The notes under the pieces are model-generated. The model saw only the letters and a program-made list of their open reading frames with translations. It ran no database searches and was not told the DNA's origin. The position numbers and the translations under genes were made by a program. Below are positions 3,309 through 45,930 of a stretch of DNA of 64,000 nt, in pieces. This DNA comes from Nitrobacteraceae bacterium AZCC 1564. GTDB taxonomy: Bacteria; Pseudomonadota; Alphaproteobacteria; Rhizobiales; Xanthobacteraceae. Each line of letters begins with the position of its first letter. The stretch's first letter is position 1. The stretch lies in the NCBI GenBank assembly GCA_036924835.1, contig JBAGRR010000001.1, positions 4,913,001 to 4,977,000 of the forward strand. The letters are read 5' to 3'.

Positions 3309-3683
3309 TCAGCTGCGGTGACGATGCCTGCGGCGGCCATGCAGGCGACGACCATGTATGCGGGGAGCGTAGGCCATGCGGGGAGCATAGGCGAAGCTAT
3401 CTTCCGGGCGCCACCAGACATCTGGATAGCATTCGCCCTGGAGCCCGGAAGCCGACTGGCGGCATTGGTTCAGGGTCGCAAAGTCGCATTCCACTTCGGC
3501 TTCGCCGTATTCCATGCAGTAGTTGCCGGGACGTGAAAGTGTGTCGGCTCTCGCGGGTGATTGTGCCGTCTGTCCGAAGTCGAAGGGTGGAAGGTCGCTG
3601 GCTCTCGCGGGTGTCATCGTTCCGAAGGCAAGCACGTAGAAACCAACTGTCGATGCCACAGCGGCTGTCTGAAGGATTTTCAT
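3309..3683 (-). CDS. DUF3551 family secreted protein
   Basis: A small exported protein of 124 residues from the start chosen at 3683, which has GGAG 6 nt upstream; in-frame ATGs at 3689 and 3695 are alternatives. A signal peptide (KILQTAAVASTVGFYVLA, then ARA-S) is followed by YCMEYGEAEVECDF, QCRQSASGLQGECYPD and WW, the spacing of cysteines and aromatic residues that defines DUF3551 in Bradyrhizobium relatives. The C-terminal end is rich in Arg and His (RRLHGRRRHRHRS). The four cysteines probably form two disulfides. The function of the family is unknown. Confidence 0.8.
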   Translation of the reverse strand: MKILQTAAVASTVGFYVLAFGTMTPARASDLPPFDFGQTAQSPARADTLSRPGNYCMEYGEAEVECDFATLNQCRQSASGLQGECYPDVWWRPEDSFAYAPRMAYAPRIHGRRLHGRRRHRHRS

Positions 3684-4104: not shown

Positions 4105-4534
4105 TTACTTCTTCGTCGGATCATCCGCCGGATTTTCGTACACCGTGTCGGTGGGGCCGTTACCGGTGAGCAGCACGATCACCGCTTCGTCGCCGGTCGT
4201 GGCAAAGTGCGGCGCGTGATCGGGCTCGGTGTAGACTGAGCCGACCGGCAGCGTCTTCAGCTTGCTCTTGTCGAATTTGTCGCCATAGCCGAAGTGCCAG
4301 GTGCCTTTAACGACGGTGCCGATCCGGTCACCTGCATGATGGTGCGCGGGAATCTGCGCGTTGGCTCCGACCTTGAGCAACTGGGCATAGATGCCGGGCT
4401 TGGAGGCATCGCCAAGGATGGTGACCACCTGCACCTTGGGATTGCCCGAGCCGCCCGGGCCGCCTGTCGGCTGAACGGCCCGCCATTGTACAAAGTGCAA
4501 GAGTGACGCCGGCCAACAATCGGGAGAGAGACAT
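4105..4534 (-). pseudogene. secreted cupin-domain protein, frameshifted after the signal peptide
   Basis: Two frames together make one protein. From ATG 4534, with AAGGAGAAAGG just upstream, the frame gives a good signal peptide (MSLSRLLAGVTLALCTMAG) and then loses sense. Another frame, open from about 4500, carries the cupin domain: AQIPAHHHAGDRIGTVVKGTW gives the metal-binding His cluster of motif 1 and DHAPHFATTGDEAVIVLL gives motif 2. The shift lies between about 4455 and 4490. Cupins of this size often bind a metal and act as oxygenases or isomerases. It is the last gene of the minus-strand cluster with the hydrolase and the MFS gene. A sequencing error cannot be excluded. Confidence 0.7.
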
Positions 4535-8305: not shown

Positions 8306-8758
8306 CTATTTTTTCTGATCGAGAGCATCCCGAACGCTATCGAGCAGATCGGATTCGGTGAACGGCTTGACGAGATAACTGATCACGCCTGCTTCAAGAG
8401 CGAGCGCGCGCACGCCCTCGCTTGGGTAACCGGTGATGAGGATCGTCGGGATCACATGACCATGCGATGACAGGTGGTGATAGAGATCAAGCCCGGTCAT
8501 TTCAGGCATATGAACATCTGCGATCAGGCACGCGGTGCACCCGACGTTGGGTGAGTTCAGGAAGTCCGGGCCACACGAAAATGCCTCGACGGAAAATCCC
8601 ATCGATCGCATCAGGCCTCTTAATGCTTCGCGAACGTACTCGTCATCCTCAACGATCGCTATCAAACGTGGCTTGTTTTCGTTTCCCACTGGCACCCCGT
8701 TACTGCGCGAACAGGGCAGCGGACGGACAGGGTTGTCGGTCTTCGCTGGCAAGAGCAC
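8306..8758 (-). CDS. single-domain response regulator (FixJ/CheY-like receiver)
   Basis: A stand-alone receiver domain. In the 150-residue frame the acidic pair is at 38-39 (VEDDEY), the phosphoacceptor is D81 (IADVHMPEM), T/S position is in ILITG and the conserved lysine is K131 (LVKPF). There is no output domain. The first ~21 residues are not receiver-like and the true start is probably a GTG at about 8695 or 8689. The closest relatives in this group of bacteria are FixJ/TodT-type receivers that modulate a partner kinase. The neighbouring receiver/LuxR regulator and MEDS kinase on the opposite strand are plausible partners. Confidence 0.85.
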   Translation of the reverse strand: MLLPAKTDNPVRPLPCSRSNGVPVGNENKPRLIAIVEDDEYVREALRGLMRSMGFSVEAFSCGPDFLNSPNVGCTACLIADVHMPEMTGLDLYHHLSSHGHVIPTILITGYPSEGVRALALEAGVISYLVKPFTESDLLDSVRDALDQKK

Positions 8759-11287: not shown

Positions 11288-11511
11288 CGTTCGCTACTCT
11301 ACTTCCCGCGAATTCGTGATGCGAACGTCAAATCCCGGAGCTCCACTAGAATCTTATATCTGCTAGTGGTCCTTTGATTCTAACGTTCACATGAGGTGCC
11401 TGCTGAAACGGGATGCGAATGTTAGAATCGGGCCACTAGTGTCCTCTCGAATCCAAAGTCCGCTACGGAGCGCGCTGCATGATGAGGCGGACTTTGGATT
11501 CGGGACACTAG
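11269..11511. repeat. CTAG-hairpin array of three hairpins
   Basis: Hairpin 1 (11269-11349) has arms GATTTGACGTTCGC and GCGAACGTCAAATC and ends in CCACTAG. A 13-nt linker AATCTTATATCTG (11350-11362) follows. Hairpin 2 (11363-11439) has arms of the GATTCTAACGTTC type. Its closing CTAG is shared with the opening CTAG of hairpin 3 (11436-11511), which has arms AATCCAAAGTCCGC and GCGGACTTTGGATT. The array fills the gap between the convergent kinase and hflX genes. Confidence 0.9.
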
Positions 11512-33425: not shown

Positions 33426-34856
33426 ATGAAGATTAGCCGTCGATCCCTTGCATTTGGTGGAATGGGGCTGCTGGCAGGAGCCGCCGCAACGCGATCAGCC
33501 TTTGCCCAGGATTCCTTTCTTGGTGTGGGCCAGGGTCTCGAGGATTTCTGGCTCGCGAGCGATGCCTACATTTTTGGCTATCCGCTGGTGACGATGGAAA
33601 TGACACGCCGGATCATTACCAATGTTGCCGAACCCGTCGGAACGCGGGGACCGATGGGCCATATCATCAAGCTACGCCAATATCCGAATGCCTCGTTCAG
33701 GGACGTCACCGCGCCAAACGCGGACACGCTCTATACGACGGCGTTTTTCGATGTCGGGCAAGAGCCGTGGGTGTTGAGTATCCCCGATATGAAGGGGCGC
33801 TATTTCCTGATGCCCATGCTGGACGGTTGGACGACGGTGTTTCACGTCCCGGGCAAGCGCACCACGGGCACCGGCGCACAAACCTACGCAATCACTGGAC
33901 CGGATTGGAAAGGCAAGCTGCCGGATGGCGTGAAGGAGTACAAATCGGCCACCAACATCGTATGGCTGCTCGGCCGCATCTATTGCACCGGCACGCCGGA
34001 GGACTACGCGGCCGTGCACAAGTTGCAGGACGAGTGCAAGCTCGTTCCGCTCAGTGCCTACGGCAAGCCGTACACGCCACCTGCGGGAAAGGTCGATTCG
34101 TCCATCGACATGAAGACAGCTGTCCGCGAACAGGTCAATCGCATGGACGCGGTGTCGTATTTCAAGCTGCTGTGCGAGCTCATGAAGGCCAATCCGCCAT
34201 ACGCGGCAGATGCACCCCAGCTTGCCAAATTCGCCCGCATCGGCATCGTCCCGGGACAGGACTTTGACGAAAGCAAGCTCAAGGCGGACTTCCTGAAGCG
34301 CGTGCCGGAATTGTCGTTCGACAGGATCATGCTCCAGTTCAAGATCAACAAGGCGATCAAGGACGAGAATGGTTTTGCCTACACGACCAAAACCGGCATC
34401 TACGGCACCGATTATTTGATGCGGGCCCTCGTCACCGCCATTGGCCTCGGCGCCAACCGTCCGCAAGATGCGGTCTACCCCACCTCGGAAAAGGATGCGG
34501 ATGGCCGCAAGTACAACGGCGCGAACAAATACGTCATGCGGTTTCCCAAAGGCCACCTGCCTCCCGCGGAGGGGTTCTGGTCACTCACGATGTACGACAG
34601 CGGCTACTTCTTTGTGAACAATCCGCTCAACCGCTACTCGATCAGTGCCCGCGAGGATCTGAAGCAGAATCCGGATGGCTCGACTGATCTTTACATTCAG
34701 AAGGACTCCCCAGGCAAAGATAAGGAAGCAAACTGGCTTCCTGCGCCGGCGGGAGATTTCATACTCATGCTGCGCATGTACTGGCCGCAGGAAACCGACC
34801 CGTCGATCATCAACGGCACGTGGACGGTTCCTCCCGCCAAGAAGGTCGGGGCTTGA
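33426..34856 (+). CDS. DUF1254/DUF1214 domain protein, exported
   Basis: A 476-residue protein with a twin-arginine-like leader (ISRRSLAFGGMGLLAGAA, ending AFAQ). The N-terminal DUF1254 region includes YIFGYPLVTMEMTRRI, APNADTLYTTAFFDVGQEPW and DMKGRYFLMPMLDGWTTVF; the C-terminal DUF1214 region includes YVMRFPKGHLPPAEGFWSLT, MYDSGYFFVNNPLNRYSIS and DLYIQKDSPGKDKEANWLPA. Two-domain proteins of this kind are widespread and have no established activity. AAAAAAAGGAGATAGCG before the ATG is a strong ribosome binding site. A large nested repeat follows 21 bp after the stop. Confidence 0.9.
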   Translation: MKISRRSLAFGGMGLLAGAAATRSAFAQDSFLGVGQGLEDFWLASDAYIFGYPLVTMEMTRRIITNVAEPVGTRGPMGHIIKLRQYPNASFRDVTAPNADTLYTTAFFDVGQEPWVLSIPDMKGRYFLMPMLDGWTTVFHVPGKRTTGTGAQTYAITGPDWKGKLPDGVKEYKSATNIVWLLGRIYCTGTPEDYAAVHKLQDECKLVPLSAYGKPYTPPAGKVDSSIDMKTAVREQVNRMDAVSYFKLLCELMKANPPYAADAPQLAKFARIGIVPGQDFDESKLKADFLKRVPELSFDRIMLQFKINKAIKDENGFAYTTKTGIYGTDYLMRALVTAIGLGANRPQDAVYPTSEKDADGRKYNGANKYVMRFPKGHLPPAEGFWSLTMYDSGYFFVNNPLNRYSISAREDLKQNPDGSTDLYIQKDSPGKDKEANWLPAPAGDFILMLRMYWPQETDPSIINGTWTVPPAKKVGA

Positions 34857-34877
34857 GAATTTGAACTCATGCCGGCA

Positions 34878-35115
34878 CTAGTGTCCCTTAAGTTCTGACA
34901 TTCGTAAGCGAGCTAGTGTCCCGTCTCCGAATAACCGCCTCATTCGCGGCGCGCTCGCACGGTTATTCGGAGACGAGAGGACACTAGCAGAATCAAAATG
35001 CTAGTGTGGCTTTGTCTCGCAATTGCCGATGAGAAACCTGCCGCAAGAGAGATCGGCAATTGCGAGACGCCACACTAGCCGCAAACTGATACGAATGTCA
35101 GAACCGGGACACTAG
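34878..35115. repeat. nested CTAG element: outer stem enclosing two hairpins
   Basis: The outer ends 34878-34912 and 35079-35115 pair through GTGTCCC/GGGACAC and GTTCTGACATTCG/CGAATGTCAGAAC. Inside are two complete CTAG hairpins: 34913-34987 with arms GTCTCCGAATAACCG / CGGTTATTCGGAGAC, and 35001-35078 with arms GTCTCGCAATTGCCGA / TCGGCAATTGCGAGAC. A 13-nt linker CAGAATCAAAATG joins them. Folded as a single strand the unit makes a cloverleaf-like three-stem figure. Confidence 0.92.
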
Positions 35116-35138
35116 GAGTGGGCCGGCATGAACCAGGT

Positions 35139-35242
35139 CTAAAGCGCGATGAGATCAGGATGAATCATCATCGCGCTTTAGGTTATTGTTTGAGCATGAT
35201 CTTTTCGGAAAACCGCTGCACACTTTTCCGGATCATGCTCTA
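35139..35242. repeat. second palindromic family: two adjacent hairpins
   Basis: The first hairpin, 35139-35181, has arms CTAAAGCGCGATGA and TCATCGCGCTTTAG. The second, about 35192-35239, has arms AGCATGATC(TTTTCGGAAAA) and (CTTTTCCG)GATCATGCT. Elements of this type are common in Bradyrhizobium relatives. The closing CTAG supplies the TAG stop of the minus-strand cyclase gene. Confidence 0.85.
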
Positions 35243-36325
35243 GTTGGGAGTGACCGCCTGAAGTCCATGACACTCGAATAGTTCGAGGACTCCCTTTCCC
35301 TTCAGTTCCACGAGACCGCAGCTTCGGCCCGCGCAGCAATGGCGAACCTCTTCCCAGGCTGCGGCACTCATAAAGATCGATCCTTCGTTGGCGTGCGAGG
35401 TGATACGGGCGGCGGTGTTCACCGTATCTCCCCACAAATCGAACAAATATTGATGCCGGCCCATGACGCCCGCGATCACCGGACCGTTATGAATCCCGAC
35501 GCGGATCGACCAGCCGGGCTTGAGGCTCCGCGAGGTTTCGATCATCGCCCTCGCACAGCGCACCGCGGCGAGCACGCCGTCCTGCATTGGCCTCAGCAGT
35601 CCGGCGGTGGCAAAGAATGCATCCCCGATGGTTTTGATCTTTTCCATCGCATGCGCATCGACGATGTCCTCAAACGCATCAACAAGACCGCGAAGTTCAG
35701 AGACCACCTGCTCCGCAGGGTGGCTGTCGCAGTACTGCGTGAATCCAACGATATCGCTGAACAGCACCGTCACGTCTTCCACGCGGCGCGGCTTGACCTC
35801 GTTCGTCGCCTTTAACTCAGCCAAGGCACTTGGCGGCAGGATGGCTTGCAGCAATTCATCAGCGCGGCGCCGCTCGCGTTGGATCTCTTCGCGGTAGTAG
35901 GCCTCGCGGTCTCGCAGGCGCTTTTTCTCAAGGCACGCGCCGACCCGCGCTCCGAGAATGACGGGATTGAACGGCTTGAGAAGATAGTCGTCGGCGCCAA
36001 GTTCGATACCGCGAACCACGCTGTGAACGTCGTCCACTGCAGAAATCATGATCACGCGGATTTCTTGCAGGGCAGGGCGGGCTTTGAGTTGCTCCAGCAC
36101 TTCATGACCATTCATTCTTGGCATCATGACGTCGAGGAGCATCAGATCCACGGGGCGCTCGGAGAGCATTGACAAGGCCTCGACCCCATCGGCGGCGGTC
36201 AAGACCGTCTCATAGCCCAGGTGTCGTAACCGGCGCAGGAGCAGATAACGATTGTCCTCGTTGTCATCGACGATCAGGATCGTGGGCGAGGGTTCGTTCA
36301 TGAGGGTTCGTTCATGCAAGCTCAT
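35240..36325 (-). CDS. response regulator-adenylate cyclase fusion
   Basis: A 361-residue protein that links a receiver to a class III cyclase. The receiver (residues ~14-130) has ILIVDDNEDN, phosphoacceptor D65 (LMLLDVMMPRM) and K117. A charged helical linker (130-165, signalling-helix-like) leads into the catalytic domain at ~182-345. Metal-binding aspartates are D191 (LFSDIVGF) and D235 (GDAFF); K231 and D297 (FDLWGDTVN) are the residues that select adenine, so cAMP is the expected product. ATG 36301 is an alternative start. It directly follows the receiver gene at 36326 in a minus-strand signalling cluster. The stop is inside a palindromic repeat. Confidence 0.92.
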   Translation of the reverse strand: MSLHERTLMNEPSPTILIVDDNEDNRYLLLRRLRHLGYETVLTAADGVEALSMLSERPVDLMLLDVMMPRMNGHEVLEQLKARPALQEIRVIMISAVDDVHSVVRGIELGADDYLLKPFNPVILGARVGACLEKKRLRDREAYYREEIQRERRRADELLQAILPPSALAELKATNEVKPRRVEDVTVLFSDIVGFTQYCDSHPAEQVVSELRGLVDAFEDIVDAHAMEKIKTIGDAFFATAGLLRPMQDGVLAAVRCARAMIETSRSLKPGWSIRVGIHNGPVIAGVMGRHQYLFDLWGDTVNTAARITSHANEGSIFMSAAAWEEVRHCCAGRSCGLVELKGKGVLELFECHGLQAVTPN

Positions 36326-39438: not shown

Positions 39439-39768
39439 CTAGTGGAGTGGATTTGACATTCGCTACCCACCTAGTGTCCCGATTCCGAAGTTCGCATCAT
39501 TCCGCAGCACGTTCGTTTGCGAGCTTCGGAATCGAAGGACACTAGCAAGTTATTGTTCTAGTGTGGCTTTGGTTCAGAAGTCCGCATTATGGACTTGCTG
39601 CACGAATGATGCGGACTTCTGAACCGCCACACTAGCGGCGAGTTCGTCAAGCGAATGTCAAATCCAAAACTCCACTAGAAGTTTATATTTGCTAGTGGTC
39701 CTTTGATTCTAACATTCGCAGGTGGCGCCTGCTGAAACGGGATGCGAATGTTAGAATCGGACCACTAG
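39439..39768. repeat. nested CTAG element followed by a further hairpin
   Basis: The outer stem (39439-39470 with 39636-39678) pairs GATTTGACATTCGC with GCGAATGTCAAATC and CTAGTGGAG with CTCCACTAG. It encloses hairpin 39471-39545 (GATTCCGAAGTTCGC / GCGAGCTTCGGAATC) and hairpin 39558-39635 (GGTTCAGAAGTCCGC / GCGGACTTCTGAACC), joined by the 12-nt CAAGTTATTGTT. A 13-nt linker AAGTTTATATTTG then leads to hairpin 39692-39768 (GATTCTAACATTCGC / GCGAATGTTAGAATC). The whole fills the space between the c-heme gene and the hybrid kinase. Confidence 0.93.
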
Positions 39769-40582: not shown

Positions 40583-43039
40583 TCAATGCCCCTCAATCGC
40601 CGCCATCACCTTCGCCGGGGTGAACGGGACCGAGCGCAACCGCACGCCGATGGCGTCGAACACGGCGTTCGAGATCGCCGATGGCACGATGACGGATGCA
40701 GGCTCGCCCGCGCCCCAGGGTTTCTCATTCGGACGATCGATCAGCTCGATGATGACGTCCGGCACCTCGGGAAACGTCAGGATTGGGTATGTTGCCCAAT
40801 GCAGGCTCGTCACCGCTGATCGGTCAAAGAGAACTTCCTCTTTCAACGTGCGGCTGACGGTCTGGATGACATTTCCCTCGATCTGATTCCTGACGCCGTC
40901 CGGGTTAATGATCTGCCCGCAGTCGTGCACGATGAGGAACCGCTGCACGTTGATCTCGCCAGTTCGCCGGTCGATCTCGACCTCAGCGACGGCGCCGACA
41001 TAGGTGCGGCCCAGATCATATTTCACGTAGCTGATTCCTCTTCCCGTCACTCGCTCTCCCTTGACGTCCTTGCGGGGAGAGGGGCGTTTATCCCATCTCG
41101 TGAGAGCAGCCAGACGCACCAGAAGCTCGGCACCGCGCGGATCGTTGAGATGGCCAAGGCGAAAATCGAGCGGGTCGGCACCAACAAAAGCAGCGAGCTC
41201 ATCAACGAAACATTCGTTAGCGAAAGTATTTTGCAGCCGCCCCGGTGACCGAACCCATGACCAGCGCAGTGGCGCTTCTGCAAGGATATGCGCGAGGGTC
41301 TTGATGTTTGGAAACGTGTAGGGGATCGCCGAGTTGGTGGTCATCACATTGGGGAAGGCGAACCGGTACGGCTCCGTTATCGGTCCAGTGGACACGCCGG
41401 CGAGCGTGGCCGCGATCAGTGGCACCGGCGCGAGGCCATCCTCAGGAACGAAGAACTCCGACTCCCAGGCGATCACCTTGCCTTCGTCATCAACTCCGGC
41501 ACGGACGTCGATCAGTATTGGCGGACCTTTGGGATCCCAGCCGTGCTCGTCAGCGCGCATCCACTGGACGCGAACTGGTCTGCCGCCCATCGCGCGCGAG
41601 AGGAGAGCAGCGTCGCCGGCCGCGTCTTCGTGCCCGTTGCGGCCGTAACAGCCCGAACCCTCGACATAGAGACAGCGCACATTGTCGGGTGGCATATCCA
41701 TCATCGCGACGAGCTGTCGTCTCAACCTATGCGTCGCCTGAGAGGCGCTCCAACATGTAAGCGTCCCGTTGCTGATCTCGACGACAGCACAAGACGGACT
41801 GATCGAACCGTGGGTGTGGATGGCGAAATCGTACGTTGCCGAGATGCGTTTCGGCGCATCACCGAGCGCCTTGGTGCTATCACCGACATTGGAGGTCACC
41901 TGATCGCCATTGGTTTTGGTGGCGCGAACGTGCTCCCAGAGGTGAGCGCGCTCCGGCAGTCCTTTCCATTCTGACCAGGTCGCCTTCAGCTTGCGTGCGG
42001 CCTGAATGGCGCCCCATTCGGTTGTTGCCACGACGCCCAGGAAGTCGCCTTCGCGGATCACCTTGAGGAGGCTAGGCACGTCATTCACGGAGGATTCGTC
42101 GACACTCTCGAGGCGAGCACCGATGGCCAACGGGCGAACCACGCGGCCGTGCAGCATTCCGTCGACACGGAAATCTTGCATGTAGGTGAAATGTCCGGTC
42201 GCCTTTTCTGGAATATCGGGACGCGCCGCAGACGTGCCCACCACCGTGTACGTCGCCGGGTCCTTCACAGGCGCTTTGTTGTCGATCTTCAGCGAGAACG
42301 TGCCGCCGCCGACAAGCTCGGCAGCTCCGTCGACACTCTCGAGGCGAGCACCGATGGCCAACGGGCGAACCACGCGGCCGTGCAGCATTCCGTCGACACG
42401 GAAATCTTGCATGTAGGTGAAATGTCCGGTCGCCTTTTCTGGAATATCGGGACGCGCCGCAGACGTGCCCACCACCGTGTACGTCGCCGGGTCCTTCACA
42501 GGCGCTTTGTTGTCGATCTTCAGCGAGAACGTGCCGCCGCCGACAAGCTCGGCATAGGACGCGCTTCTGCCTTGACCTGCGATCATGCCGCTCTCGATGC
42601 GAAGCTCCGTCGTCGGCACGCCCAAGCGATCTGCGGCGATTTCGGCCAGCGCTTTGCGCGCTGTCGCCGCGGCCCGTCGTATCTGCATCCCGCCGATCTG
42701 AATCGAGAGGCTTCCCCAGGTTGGGCCCTGGTCCGGTGTGAGCGCGGTGTCACCCTGGATGAGGCTGACTTGGTCGAGCGGCACGTCGAGCTCTTCGGCC
42801 GCGATCTGCATCAGCGCGGTGGGTAATCCAGTCCCGAGGTCGACTTTGCCGGTATACACGGTGACCCGCCCGTCAGCATCGATCGATAGGAATCCGTCGA
42901 CCTCGTCGGATGCGACGTTCTTTTTTGCGGCGCTGCTCTGCGCCAAGGCGGAACGCACCTGTCCCGCGAGCGTGAAGGTGACGAAGAGCGCACCGCCGGC
43001 TTTCAACACGTCACGACGGGTGGAGACGACATCCAGCAT
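40583..43039 (-). CDS. xanthine dehydrogenase-family molybdopterin-binding subunit (IorB-like), with internal duplication
   Basis: An 818-residue large subunit of a molybdenum hydroxylase, from ATG 43039, carrying a Tat leader (STRRDVLKAGGALFVTFTLA). Recognisable parts include VYTGKVDLGTGLPTALMQIA, EGSGCYGRNGHEDAAGDAAL, WSWVRSPGRLQNTFANECFV and the C-terminal VHDCGQIINPDGVRNQIEGN with WGAGEPASV near the end, which holds the catalytic Glu. This is the isoquinoline 1-oxidoreductase beta / aldehyde dehydrogenase type without FAD subunit. Residues about 162-238 and 239-315 are identical copies produced by a 231-bp in-frame duplication. The unduplicated length would be 741 residues, which fits the family. 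The substrate is unknown. Confidence 0.92.
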   Translation of the reverse strand: MLDVVSTRRDVLKAGGALFVTFTLAGQVRSALAQSSAAKKNVASDEVDGFLSIDADGRVTVYTGKVDLGTGLPTALMQIAAEELDVPLDQVSLIQGDTALTPDQGPTWGSLSIQIGGMQIRRAAATARKALAEIAADRLGVPTTELRIESGMIAGQGRSASYAELVGGGTFSLKIDNKAPVKDPATYTVVGTSAARPDIPEKATGHFTYMQDFRVDGMLHGRVVRPLAIGARLESVDGAAELVGGGTFSLKIDNKAPVKDPATYTVVGTSAARPDIPEKATGHFTYMQDFRVDGMLHGRVVRPLAIGARLESVDESSVNDVPSLLKVIREGDFLGVVATTEWGAIQAARKLKATWSEWKGLPERAHLWEHVRATKTNGDQVTSNVGDSTKALGDAPKRISATYDFAIHTHGSISPSCAVVEISNGTLTCWSASQATHRLRRQLVAMMDMPPDNVRCLYVEGSGCYGRNGHEDAAGDAALLSRAMGGRPVRVQWMRADEHGWDPKGPPILIDVRAGVDDEGKVIAWESEFFVPEDGLAPVPLIAATLAGVSTGPITEPYRFAFPNVMTTNSAIPYTFPNIKTLAHILAEAPLRWSWVRSPGRLQNTFANECFVDELAAFVGADPLDFRLGHLNDPRGAELLVRLAALTRWDKRPSPRKDVKGERVTGRGISYVKYDLGRTYVGAVAEVEIDRRTGEINVQRFLIVHDCGQIINPDGVRNQIEGNVIQTVSRTLKEEVLFDRSAVTSLHWATYPILTFPEVPDVIIELIDRPNEKPWGAGEPASVIVPSAISNAVFDAIGVRLRSVPFTPAKVMAAIEGH
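42097..42554. repeat. perfect 231-bp in-frame tandem duplication
   Basis: Bases 42097-42323 and 42328-42554 are identical over 227 bp by direct comparison, with a 4-base junction GCTC, giving a period of 231 bp (77 codons). It lies in the molybdenum hydroxylase gene and keeps the reading frame. Confidence 0.95.
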
Positions 43040-43055
43040 CTTTGTCTCCTTTGTC

Positions 43056-43523
43056 TCACGCCGTCCCGGCCGCCCGCTGCACTGCCCGAACGATGCGAAG
43101 ATGCGTGCCGCAACGGCAGAGATTGTCAGCAAGCGCCTTCTTGATCTGCGGAACGGTCGGGTTCTTGGTTTTTGCGAGGAGGGCGGTCGCGCTGATGATC
43201 ATGCCATTGAGGCAGAAGCCGCACTGCGCGGCCTGTTCGTCGATAAAGGCTTGCTGAACAGGCGAGGGATGCTCCGGACTGCCGAGTCCCTCGAGCGTCA
43301 CGATCTTCTTGTTTGCGACCTTGGTGAGTGGGGTTTCACAGGAGAGCGCAGGCTCGGAGTCCAAAAGCACGGCGCAGGTGCCGCACTGGCCCAGTCCGCA
43401 GCCGAAGCGCGGACCCTTCAATTCAAGATGATCTCGCAGTGCATAGAGAAGCGGCATGCCCGGGTCATCGACTTCAATCGTGACCGCGCGGCCGTTGACA
43501 TCGAGCGAAACCGACGTGGGCAT
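43056..43523 (-). CDS. [2Fe-2S] subunit of molybdenum hydroxylase (IorA-like)
   Basis: A 155-residue electron-transfer subunit from ATG 43523. The N-terminal plant-type ferredoxin cluster ligands are in GPRFGCGLGQCGTCAVLL with a fourth Cys in PALSCETP; the C-terminal helical cluster ligands are in QCGFCLNGM and NLCRCGTH. It passes electrons from the molybdopterin subunit, whose gene starts 16 bp downstream, presumably to a cytochrome c since no FAD subunit is present. A CTAG array lies immediately upstream, where the promoter should be. Confidence 0.94.
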   Translation of the reverse strand: MPTSVSLDVNGRAVTIEVDDPGMPLLYALRDHLELKGPRFGCGLGQCGTCAVLLDSEPALSCETPLTKVANKKIVTLEGLGSPEHPSPVQQAFIDEQAAQCGFCLNGMIISATALLAKTKNPTVPQIKKALADNLCRCGTHLRIVRAVQRAAGTA

Positions 43524-43550: not shown

Positions 43551-43716
43551 CTAGTGTCCCGAATCCAAAGTCCGCCTCATCGTGCAGCGCGCTCTGTAGC
43601 GGACTTGGATTCGAGAGGACACTAGTAAATCTATGATTCTAGTGTGGTTCAGGTTCAGAAGTTCGCTGGAAGGACCCGCAGAGAAAATCGGGCGAACTTC
43701 TGAACCACCACACTAG
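43551..43716. repeat. CTAG-hairpin array of two hairpins (inverted orientation)
   Basis: Hairpin 43551-43625 is type A (AATCCAAAGTCCGC / GCGGACTTGGATT). Hairpin 43639-43716 is type B (GTTCAGAAGTTCGC / GCGAACTTCTGAAC). The 13-nt linker TAAATCTATGATT is the reverse complement of the linker form found at 45770 and 47639, so the array lies in the opposite orientation. Confidence 0.93.
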
Positions 43717-45664: not shown

Positions 45665-45930
45665 GAGAGCGTTTTCGAGCGAAGTGGCACATGAGTACCG
45701 CGGATTTGAGGTTCTTCCGAGTGAAGCCGCAAGCTCGATGAAGAACTTCAAGTCCAAAAGCGGAACTCAAATCATAGGTTTGCTAGTGTCCTCTCGCATC
45801 CAAAGTCCGCTACGGCAGCGCGCTGCACGATGAGGCGGACTTTGGATTCGGACATTAATTCGCGTGAAGAAAACGTGTCGAAACCAAAACTGAGAGCTTC
45901 AGTTCTGATTCAATCAGAACCGAAGCACGA
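45665..45930. repeat. second-family repeat interrupted by a CTAG-hairpin array
   Basis: The left half of the GCGTTTTCGAGCGAAGTGG repeat (45665-45690) is separated from its right half (about 45857-45927, CGCGTGAAGAAAACG to the TTCTGATTCAATCAGAA palindrome) by about 166 bp. The insert contains hairpin 45692-45769 (arms GGATTTGAGGTTCTTC / GAAGAACTTCAAGTCC), the 13-nt linker AATCATAGGTTTG, and type A hairpin 45783 to about 45856. The uninterrupted form of the host repeat is at 56636-56742. Confidence 0.9.

Follow-up and report, generated by a model that had tools for sequence, protein, structure and literature searches.

Bacterial genomes commonly contain palindromic repeats. RIME, for instance, are intergenic palindromes of related bacteria that by their description resemble the units reported here, and integron attC sites, which these units also resemble, are folded single-strand hairpins with unpaired bases, conserved ends and a variable stem. 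Closest in layout are REPINs, or GTAG-type REP doublets with RAYT, in which inverted palindromes separated by a short spacer form the replicating unit (PMC3116915, PMC3733652, PMC8266576; this and the following comparisons draw on parts of the papers cited). CGTC-tagged REPs are palindromic dimers reported to lack linked transposase genes, some of them found in Bradyrhizobium and Rhodopseudomonas (PMC3733652). MITEs of the IS630 or IS5/IS427 type, and IS711/Bru-RS of Brucella, use a YTAR or CTAG target and insert into palindromic repeats (PMC2266754, PMC2170065). Br-REP1 and Br-REP2 of Bradyrhizobium are likewise intergenic palindromes in related bacteria, although their printed consensus sequences bear no evident likeness to our units (PMC5082802). 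A search of open-licence PubMed Central papers retrieved no description of the present CTAG hairpin-pair family.

The composite at positions 34878..35115 of the window (the whole 64-kb stretch of DNA analysed) is one hairpin-pair element inserted into another, and both belong to a family that is REPIN-like but distinct. Like REPINs, the members of this family are inverted pairs of palindromes with a short spacer, occur in high copy number and mostly in intergenic positions, form subfamilies and leave singlets as remnants; some REPINs also have a bulge in the stem. They differ in that the feet of the composite read CTAG, within the stem, instead of the GTAG tag (our wider sets were selected for CTAG and hence are no test of this point), in having ca. 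25-pair stems of freely varying sequence in units of ca. 166 bp, and in that no Y1 transposase was found in their own genome, whereas REPINs flank RAYT genes. Like CGTC-tagged REPs they are palindromic dimers for which no linked transposase was found, but the tag differs, and CTAG never starts a word in the main text of PMC3733652. Unlike IS630 or IS5/IS427 MITEs, they carry a bulged hairpin at each end, and we found no parent element for them among the DDE_3 and DDE_Tnp_1 matches of their own genome. Thus, the family resembles REPINs in layout and is distinct in its CTAG tag and in that no Y1 transposase was found in the own genome. We consider it more interesting than the nest itself; it bears on the spread of RAYT-less palindromic repeats in bacterial genomes.

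Within the composite, to which no strand was assigned and which was delimited from its sequence, folding, copies and restored loop, a hairpin of subfamily G is split by a hairpin pair of subfamily A. From sequence reading and the fold, the interrupted outer hairpin has its 5' arm at 34878..34906 (CTAGTGTCCC and the bulge TTA, followed by AGTTCTGACATTCGTA or GTTCTGACATTCGTA according to the placement of the bulge) and its 3' arm at 35090..35115. Comparison with uninterrupted relatives, such as that in L171 (GAG-CTAG-CCGC), places the remnants of the outer loop at 34907..34912, ending at the CTAG target, and at 35079..35089. Between them lies the inserted pair, which spans 166 bp from CTAG to CTAG (34913..35078), as defined by its dispersed copies and the restored loop. 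Hairpin search and pairing resolve it into hairpin H1 (34913..34987), with a 3-nt bulge in its 3' arm, and hairpin H2 (35001..35078), with a 3-nt bulge in its 5' arm; both bulges are on the side of the 13-nt linker (34988..35000, by sequence reading). The sequence-only reading had described complementary outer ends that close over two intact CTAG hairpins with a 13-nt linker, and this arrangement is borne out both by the sequence and by the predicted structure. Its distance of 165 bp between the outer arms, in turn, needs correction, as GTTCTGACATTCG (34892-34904) and CGAATGTCAGAAC (35092-35104) are 187 nt apart and the inner unit measures 166 bp. The folding that it had suggested recovered all three stems, with the outer one closing over the two hairpins: the minimum energy was −83.7 kcal/mol as single-stranded DNA (shuffle mean −35.6, z −14.0) and −139.7 as RNA (shuffle mean −73.8, z −13.6), and none of 200 shuffles equalled either value.

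Removal of the inner unit, except for one CTAG, restores a hairpin with 96% identity over 77 nt to the uninterrupted copy in L171, indicating that the inner pair occupies the loop CTAG of a G hairpin. The joined flanks also match uninterrupted G hairpins in L163 (95% over 76 nt) and at seven more places; in all, insert-free matches to the outer hairpin appear at no fewer than nine places in the sampled part of the genome, one of them gapped. Conversely, among 40 scored candidates from this genome (356 in a first look), 37 match the inner unit wholly or partly without the outer arms, and three correspond to the nested element in full or nearly so. The single three-stem design put forward in the sequence-only reading has therefore to be abandoned, since in this genome outer arms do occur apart from inner hairpins. 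The nest is present at three loci, namely the one described here, L002 and L003. Since no alignment was obtained between the 50-nt flanks of these loci, the composite, once formed, seems to have been duplicated as a whole. The nest in L003 retains a left partner hairpin and linker, that in L002 has a left arm resembling an arm of the L003 partner, and ours has neither partner nor linker; our inner unit is 99.4% identical to that of L002.

A second nest was identified by hairpin search and folding at 39439..39768. The sequence-only reading had noted a further copy at 39439-39678, and the same layout is indeed found there, although this segment is only the interrupted first hairpin of a subfamily-F pair, whose second hairpin (39692-39768) begins 13 nt later, after the linker (39679-39691). 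A subfamily-D pair (39471..39635) lies within the loop of the F hairpin, and its removal leaves a hairpin that shares 97% identity over 77 nt with one in L178; at the insertion point, the F relatives show CTGG, CTTG, CCAG and similar words where CTAG would be expected. The segment 39430-39780 folds with a z of −16.3, equalled by none of 100 shuffles. This is the same kind of insertion event as in our composite, with different outer and inner subfamilies (F/D instead of G/A). Units also abut in other ways: in L031, an F pair is placed at the CTAG that joins hairpin and linker of another pair, outside any loop; a hairpin search showed two hairpins sharing one CTAG at 11363..11511; and in 864 kb of this genome six neighbouring hairpins overlap by exactly the four letters of one CTAG.

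CTAG is scarce in these 864 kb, which comprise the window and L015-L054, with 760 sites versus 1074 for GTAC, 3932 for CATG, 6747 for TCGA and 7297 for GATC. Our hairpin criterion gave 179 hits from the 760 CTAG sites, versus 26 at GATC, 7 at CATG, 2 at GTAC and 23 at TCGA, which agrees with the earlier view that this is not a chance pile of REP sequences. Hairpins usually span ca. 75–78 nt, with a CTAGTG...CACTAG foot, a stem of ca. 25 pairs, a loop of ca. 22–26 nt and a bulge, usually of 3 nt (range usually 3–4), placed after pair 9 or 10. In 107 pairs, representing 105 distinct sequences, the linker measured 13 nt in 73, 12 nt in 27, 14 nt in five and another length in two, and in 90 of them both bulges were on the linker side, which makes the two hairpins inverted versions of one design; moreover, H1 and H2 have outer arms as similar to each other as imperfect terminal repeats would be. 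The dispersed unit, then, consists of two inverted bulged hairpins of ca. 166 bp in total, with a 12–14-nt linker and bounded by CTAG; an uninterrupted subfamily-B pair found by hairpin search at 43551..43716 serves for comparison. No partner was detected for 89 hairpins; a pair-like sequence lies within 100 nt of 81 of them, and eight have none; one of these eight is near a stretch end and several resemble the first arm of H1 fused to the last arm of H2. The pair, and not the single hairpin, is the unit, and singlets are remnants.

We read ca. 28% of the genome, a single contig of 5,994,409 bases (1.664 Mb including one 10-kb overlap), with some stretches, L051 among them, partly picked near known copies. 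In the genome, 114 places match the TCC/TGG layout exactly (none for the reversed control), and a more general layout gave 293 forward and 270 reverse matches (0 and 1 for the control). Within the genus, the general layout was found in 26 of 29 genomes, with at most 31 matches per reading outside the own genome, and the control yielded up to two matches in single genomes. Across the order, which relatives of a neighbouring gene suggest to be Hyphomicrobiales, it was found in 35 of 397 genomes and 18 of 141 genera. Two or more matches occurred in 33 of the 35 positive genomes versus 5/397 genomes for the control, as counted from the table; single layout hits are therefore no proof of the family. 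The layout reached further than sequence similarity, by which the inner unit retrieved nothing from 16 genomes outside the genus.

Plasmid searches with the composite, with one relative and with one further relative gave no match. One hairpin from the order-wide set did match plasmid records of Martelella sp. NC18 and NC20 and Rhizobium sp. SSA_523 at 80–81% identity; the NC18 copy is a full pair and the SSA_523 copy failed the hairpin test. A scan of viral sequences with one exact arm was negative. Viral contigs nonetheless contained at least three real hairpin pairs among the 80 loci listed (L302 is an unrelated repeat), and three of these pairs adjoin genes that, from their translations, resemble those for terminase, portal or capsid proteins. 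In two contigs with phage-like genes (L292 at 4346-4349 and L354 at 3436-3439), the CTAG of the unit provides the TAG stop of the preceding reading frame.

Most copies in the genome are not recent, as just 16 of 1334 aligned unit pairs show at least 95% identity, three of them being double readings of one place. In a placement sample formed by the window and two further sets from this genome (L051 included), with genes approximated as longest frames, 44 of 46 units lie outside the rough gene calls. The 43 units with a gene on each side occupy 10 convergent, 23 codirectional and 10 divergent gaps, near the respective shares of gap length (24%, 46% and 31%).

Comparison among species indicates gains. 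Of 42 units in stretches fetched from other species, those more than 400 nt from an end were compared, and seven face an orthologous empty place in a sister species, six of them filled in G013 and empty in G041 and one the reverse. The empty sites read CTGA, C-AG, TCGG, GTAA, TTAG and CTCG, plus one irregular (L226), and none reads CTAG; in six of the seven, 3–5 letters stand at the place of CTAG, in one case with an adjoining 4-nt gap. The empty sites thus vary, and the cut position within CTAG is ambiguous as regards a TA or CTAG target duplication. At the L223 site, the unit is missing from nine other species, four of which have CTAG there, three TTAG, one TCAG and one CTAA; this fits a gain at YTAG in the G013 line. 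At the L222 site the unit is common to G013, G018 and G043 and absent from eight aligned species, of which two carry a few additional bases there; the unit is absent in G041 yet present in more distant species, and the own genome carries a different unit ca. 40 bases further on. In L245 (874-1034) and L222 (near 8340-8504), a unit in one sister species stands opposite unrelated sequence of nearly equal length in the other.

The stem sequences vary between subfamilies and genera although their pairing persists. Stem pairing was counted directly, both within subfamilies and in 42 hairpins chosen across subfamilies and genera, in which it was held in 1034 of 1050 pair cells versus 672 on average and 707 at most when partners were shuffled 500 times; pair positions 7 to 25 show two to four pair types each. 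This set favours paired hairpins, since those from the own genome had passed a pairing filter and the viral ones the hairpin finder; 22 were hand-picked from the order-wide list, the bulge of each was set where pairing was best, and the selection itself fixed the CTAG(TG) foot. Within subfamilies of the own genome, 4325 pair cells contained 59 compensated, 108 one-sided and two otherwise changed pairs, with 37 of 210 hairpins omitted (20 without a family and 17 with poor pairing). The 5' arms differ by 1–11%, the loops by 8–39% and the 3' arms by 0–31%, the last value being ungapped and inflated by shifted bulges.

Stems are also kept after landing, changing ca. three times more slowly than loops. 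In 13 orthologous comparisons, 20 of 1296 stem-arm letters changed (1.5%), versus 29/611 in loops (4.7%; Fisher p = 8e-5), 7/158 in linkers (4.4%; p = 0.02) and 228/5184 in flanks (4.4%; p = 2e-7); the bulges had one change in 75. These comparisons are partly dependent (10 are between G013 and G041, and three share one locus across three species), the flanks include coding DNA, and L245_874 was dropped because it has unrelated stretches between the flanks. Three causes could account for this upkeep: selection for a host use, correction within the palindrome, or activity that persists. One compensated change at an orthologous site, in G018 versus G020 and G013, leaves template-switch correction as no more than a possibility.

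The composite is very probably the product of a non-autonomous, hairpin-pair mobile element of ca. 166 bp that inserted at the loop CTAG of a hairpin from a different member of its superfamily. The observed basis for this reading comprises the dispersed unit, the restored loop, the empty sister sites, the covarying stems and the other nested or abutting copies; a mobile unit was among the options that had been offered from the sequence. The element consists of two inverted hairpins with ca. 25-pair stems and linker-side bulges, bounded by CTAGTG...CACTAG; a putative enzyme acting in trans would recognise the hairpins or the CTAGTG feet and join the pair at CTAG or YTAG. We tentatively favour a version, at slightly less than even chances, in which this enzyme would work on hairpins folded in single-stranded DNA, by analogy with IS200/IS605, REP and attC systems, as the stems keep their pairing and the place of the bulge but not their sequence. 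The TnpA-REP system of E. coli, for which the tetranucleotide and the bulge matter, offers a parallel (PMC8266576, in part). Against the insertion reading count the failure to link a transposase to the units, the lack of any empty sister site reading CTAG, the fact that most copies are not recent, the excess of one-sided over compensated stem changes within subfamilies, and a constraint on stems after insertion that is not what plain decay predicts. Against single-strand insertion counts that the orientation of units showed no bias with respect to GC skew or replichore (27:26 versus 17:18), which such insertion might show. A broader proposal, possible but doubtful, is an order-wide superfamily of shape-recognised hairpin-pair transposons with a fixed CTAGTG foot and bulge and a free stem, which would be moved by a non-RAYT enzyme and kept through a gained host use. 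Filled and empty sister sites, hundreds of copies in one genome, copies beside phage genes and covarying stems make it possible to test what moves the hairpins and what maintains them.

The searches for a mover bear on the most serious rival, which we regard as less likely than not. In this view the history of nested insertion is the same, but the unit would be a MITE mobilised by a DDE transposase of the IS630/Tc1 or IS5-IS427 type with the TA in CTAG as its target, the hairpins deriving from repeated inverted ends. A TA duplication at CTAG or YTAG would leave CTAG at both ends and one unit added, as observed, and the likeness of the outer arms of H1 and H2 is that of imperfect terminal repeats. 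Furthermore, a preference of IS630 for TA in CTAG appears in a title of the reference list of PMC2170065, and IS711 is reported to use YTAR with TA duplication and to prefer palindromic Bru-RS repeats (PMC2266754, in part). Such a MITE, though, needs neither a bulged hairpin at each end nor freely covarying stems, and a search of the own genome for DDE_3 and DDE_Tnp_1 gave just one and two matches, respectively, which were rejected as movers because their ends do not fit the units. The CTAG sites near L055 and L056 are not part of hairpin-pair units, and L057 is a truncated IS fragment adjoining one unit, with a second ca. 0.8 kb past its other end, although its sister copy L056 has neither; being such a fragment beside a unit, L057 was also discarded as the filled counterpart of L056.

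A RAYT/Y1 mover was likewise rejected, as Y1_Tnp had no match in the own genome (the control was positive in 5/14); in the genus it was found in three of 29 genomes, and no CTAG hairpins occur in the loci around these genes (L179-L183). Hence, these searches (Y1_Tnp in the own genome and the genus, DDE_3 and DDE_Tnp_1 in the own genome) found no transposase linked to units. A search for genes recurring beside units across genomes (716 open stretches in 39 loci) mostly retrieved the units again and orthologous loci, together with a single family at L190, L011, L014, L213 and L189.

The nested element could also be a structured RNA, or a two-way terminator, retained for the sake of its transcript, but this is far less probable than insertion by either kind of enzyme. 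Its very stable RNA fold, its position between two convergent reading frames and the constraint on stems after insertion would suit this idea, but an Rfam scan of the window gave no match at the gathering score, and we found no promoter-like or terminator-like site in 34800-35300. Besides, the wobble signal is weak (43 G-T versus 34 A-C and 33 other mismatches on the TCC-first strand), and convergent gaps are not enriched by the rough gene calls, with 10 of 43 placed units versus ca. 24% of gap length. Finally, a three-stem cloverleaf designed as one unit, to which the recurrence of the nest at three loci with unlike flanks and the two nests of the window might point, is highly improbable, because its inner and outer parts occur separately, the two nests were built from different outer and inner subfamilies, and the L031 pair sits at a hairpin-linker junction instead of a loop.

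Two convergent reading frames flank the composite, at 33426-34856 (+) and 35240-36325 (−), which we take to be DUF1254-like and response-regulator/cyclase-like, respectively. The neighbouring gene was found in one of the 29 genomes of the genus, the own, at a strict cut-off of 1e-100, and 80 loci around relatives of the DUF1254-like gene contained no such hairpin at the threshold used. The composite is bracketed by the 10-bp halves of a host palindrome, TCATGCCGGC (34867-34876) and GCCGGCATGA (35122-35131), and its own landing site may thus have been a host hairpin loop, although 104 pair insertions show no such trend. Insertion into host inverted repeats was indeed rejected as a trend, because only one of these 104 has seven or more matching letters, with 1.3% in the control; this single case is the inner unit of our composite.

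Other repeats are found in the window. Two more palindromic repeats lie beside the composite at 35139-35242, CTAAAGCGCGATGA... and GAGCATGATC...TCGGAAAACCG, and their motifs were counted nine and four times in the sampled genome, both strands included. A different family of short palindromic repeats, TTCAGTTCTGATT..CAGAACCGAAG, is present at 45898, 49990 and 56706. Lastly, the long reading frame 40583-43132, presumably oxidoreductase-like, contains at 42079-42540 an in-frame tandem duplication of 231 bp (77 codons) with 97% identity.
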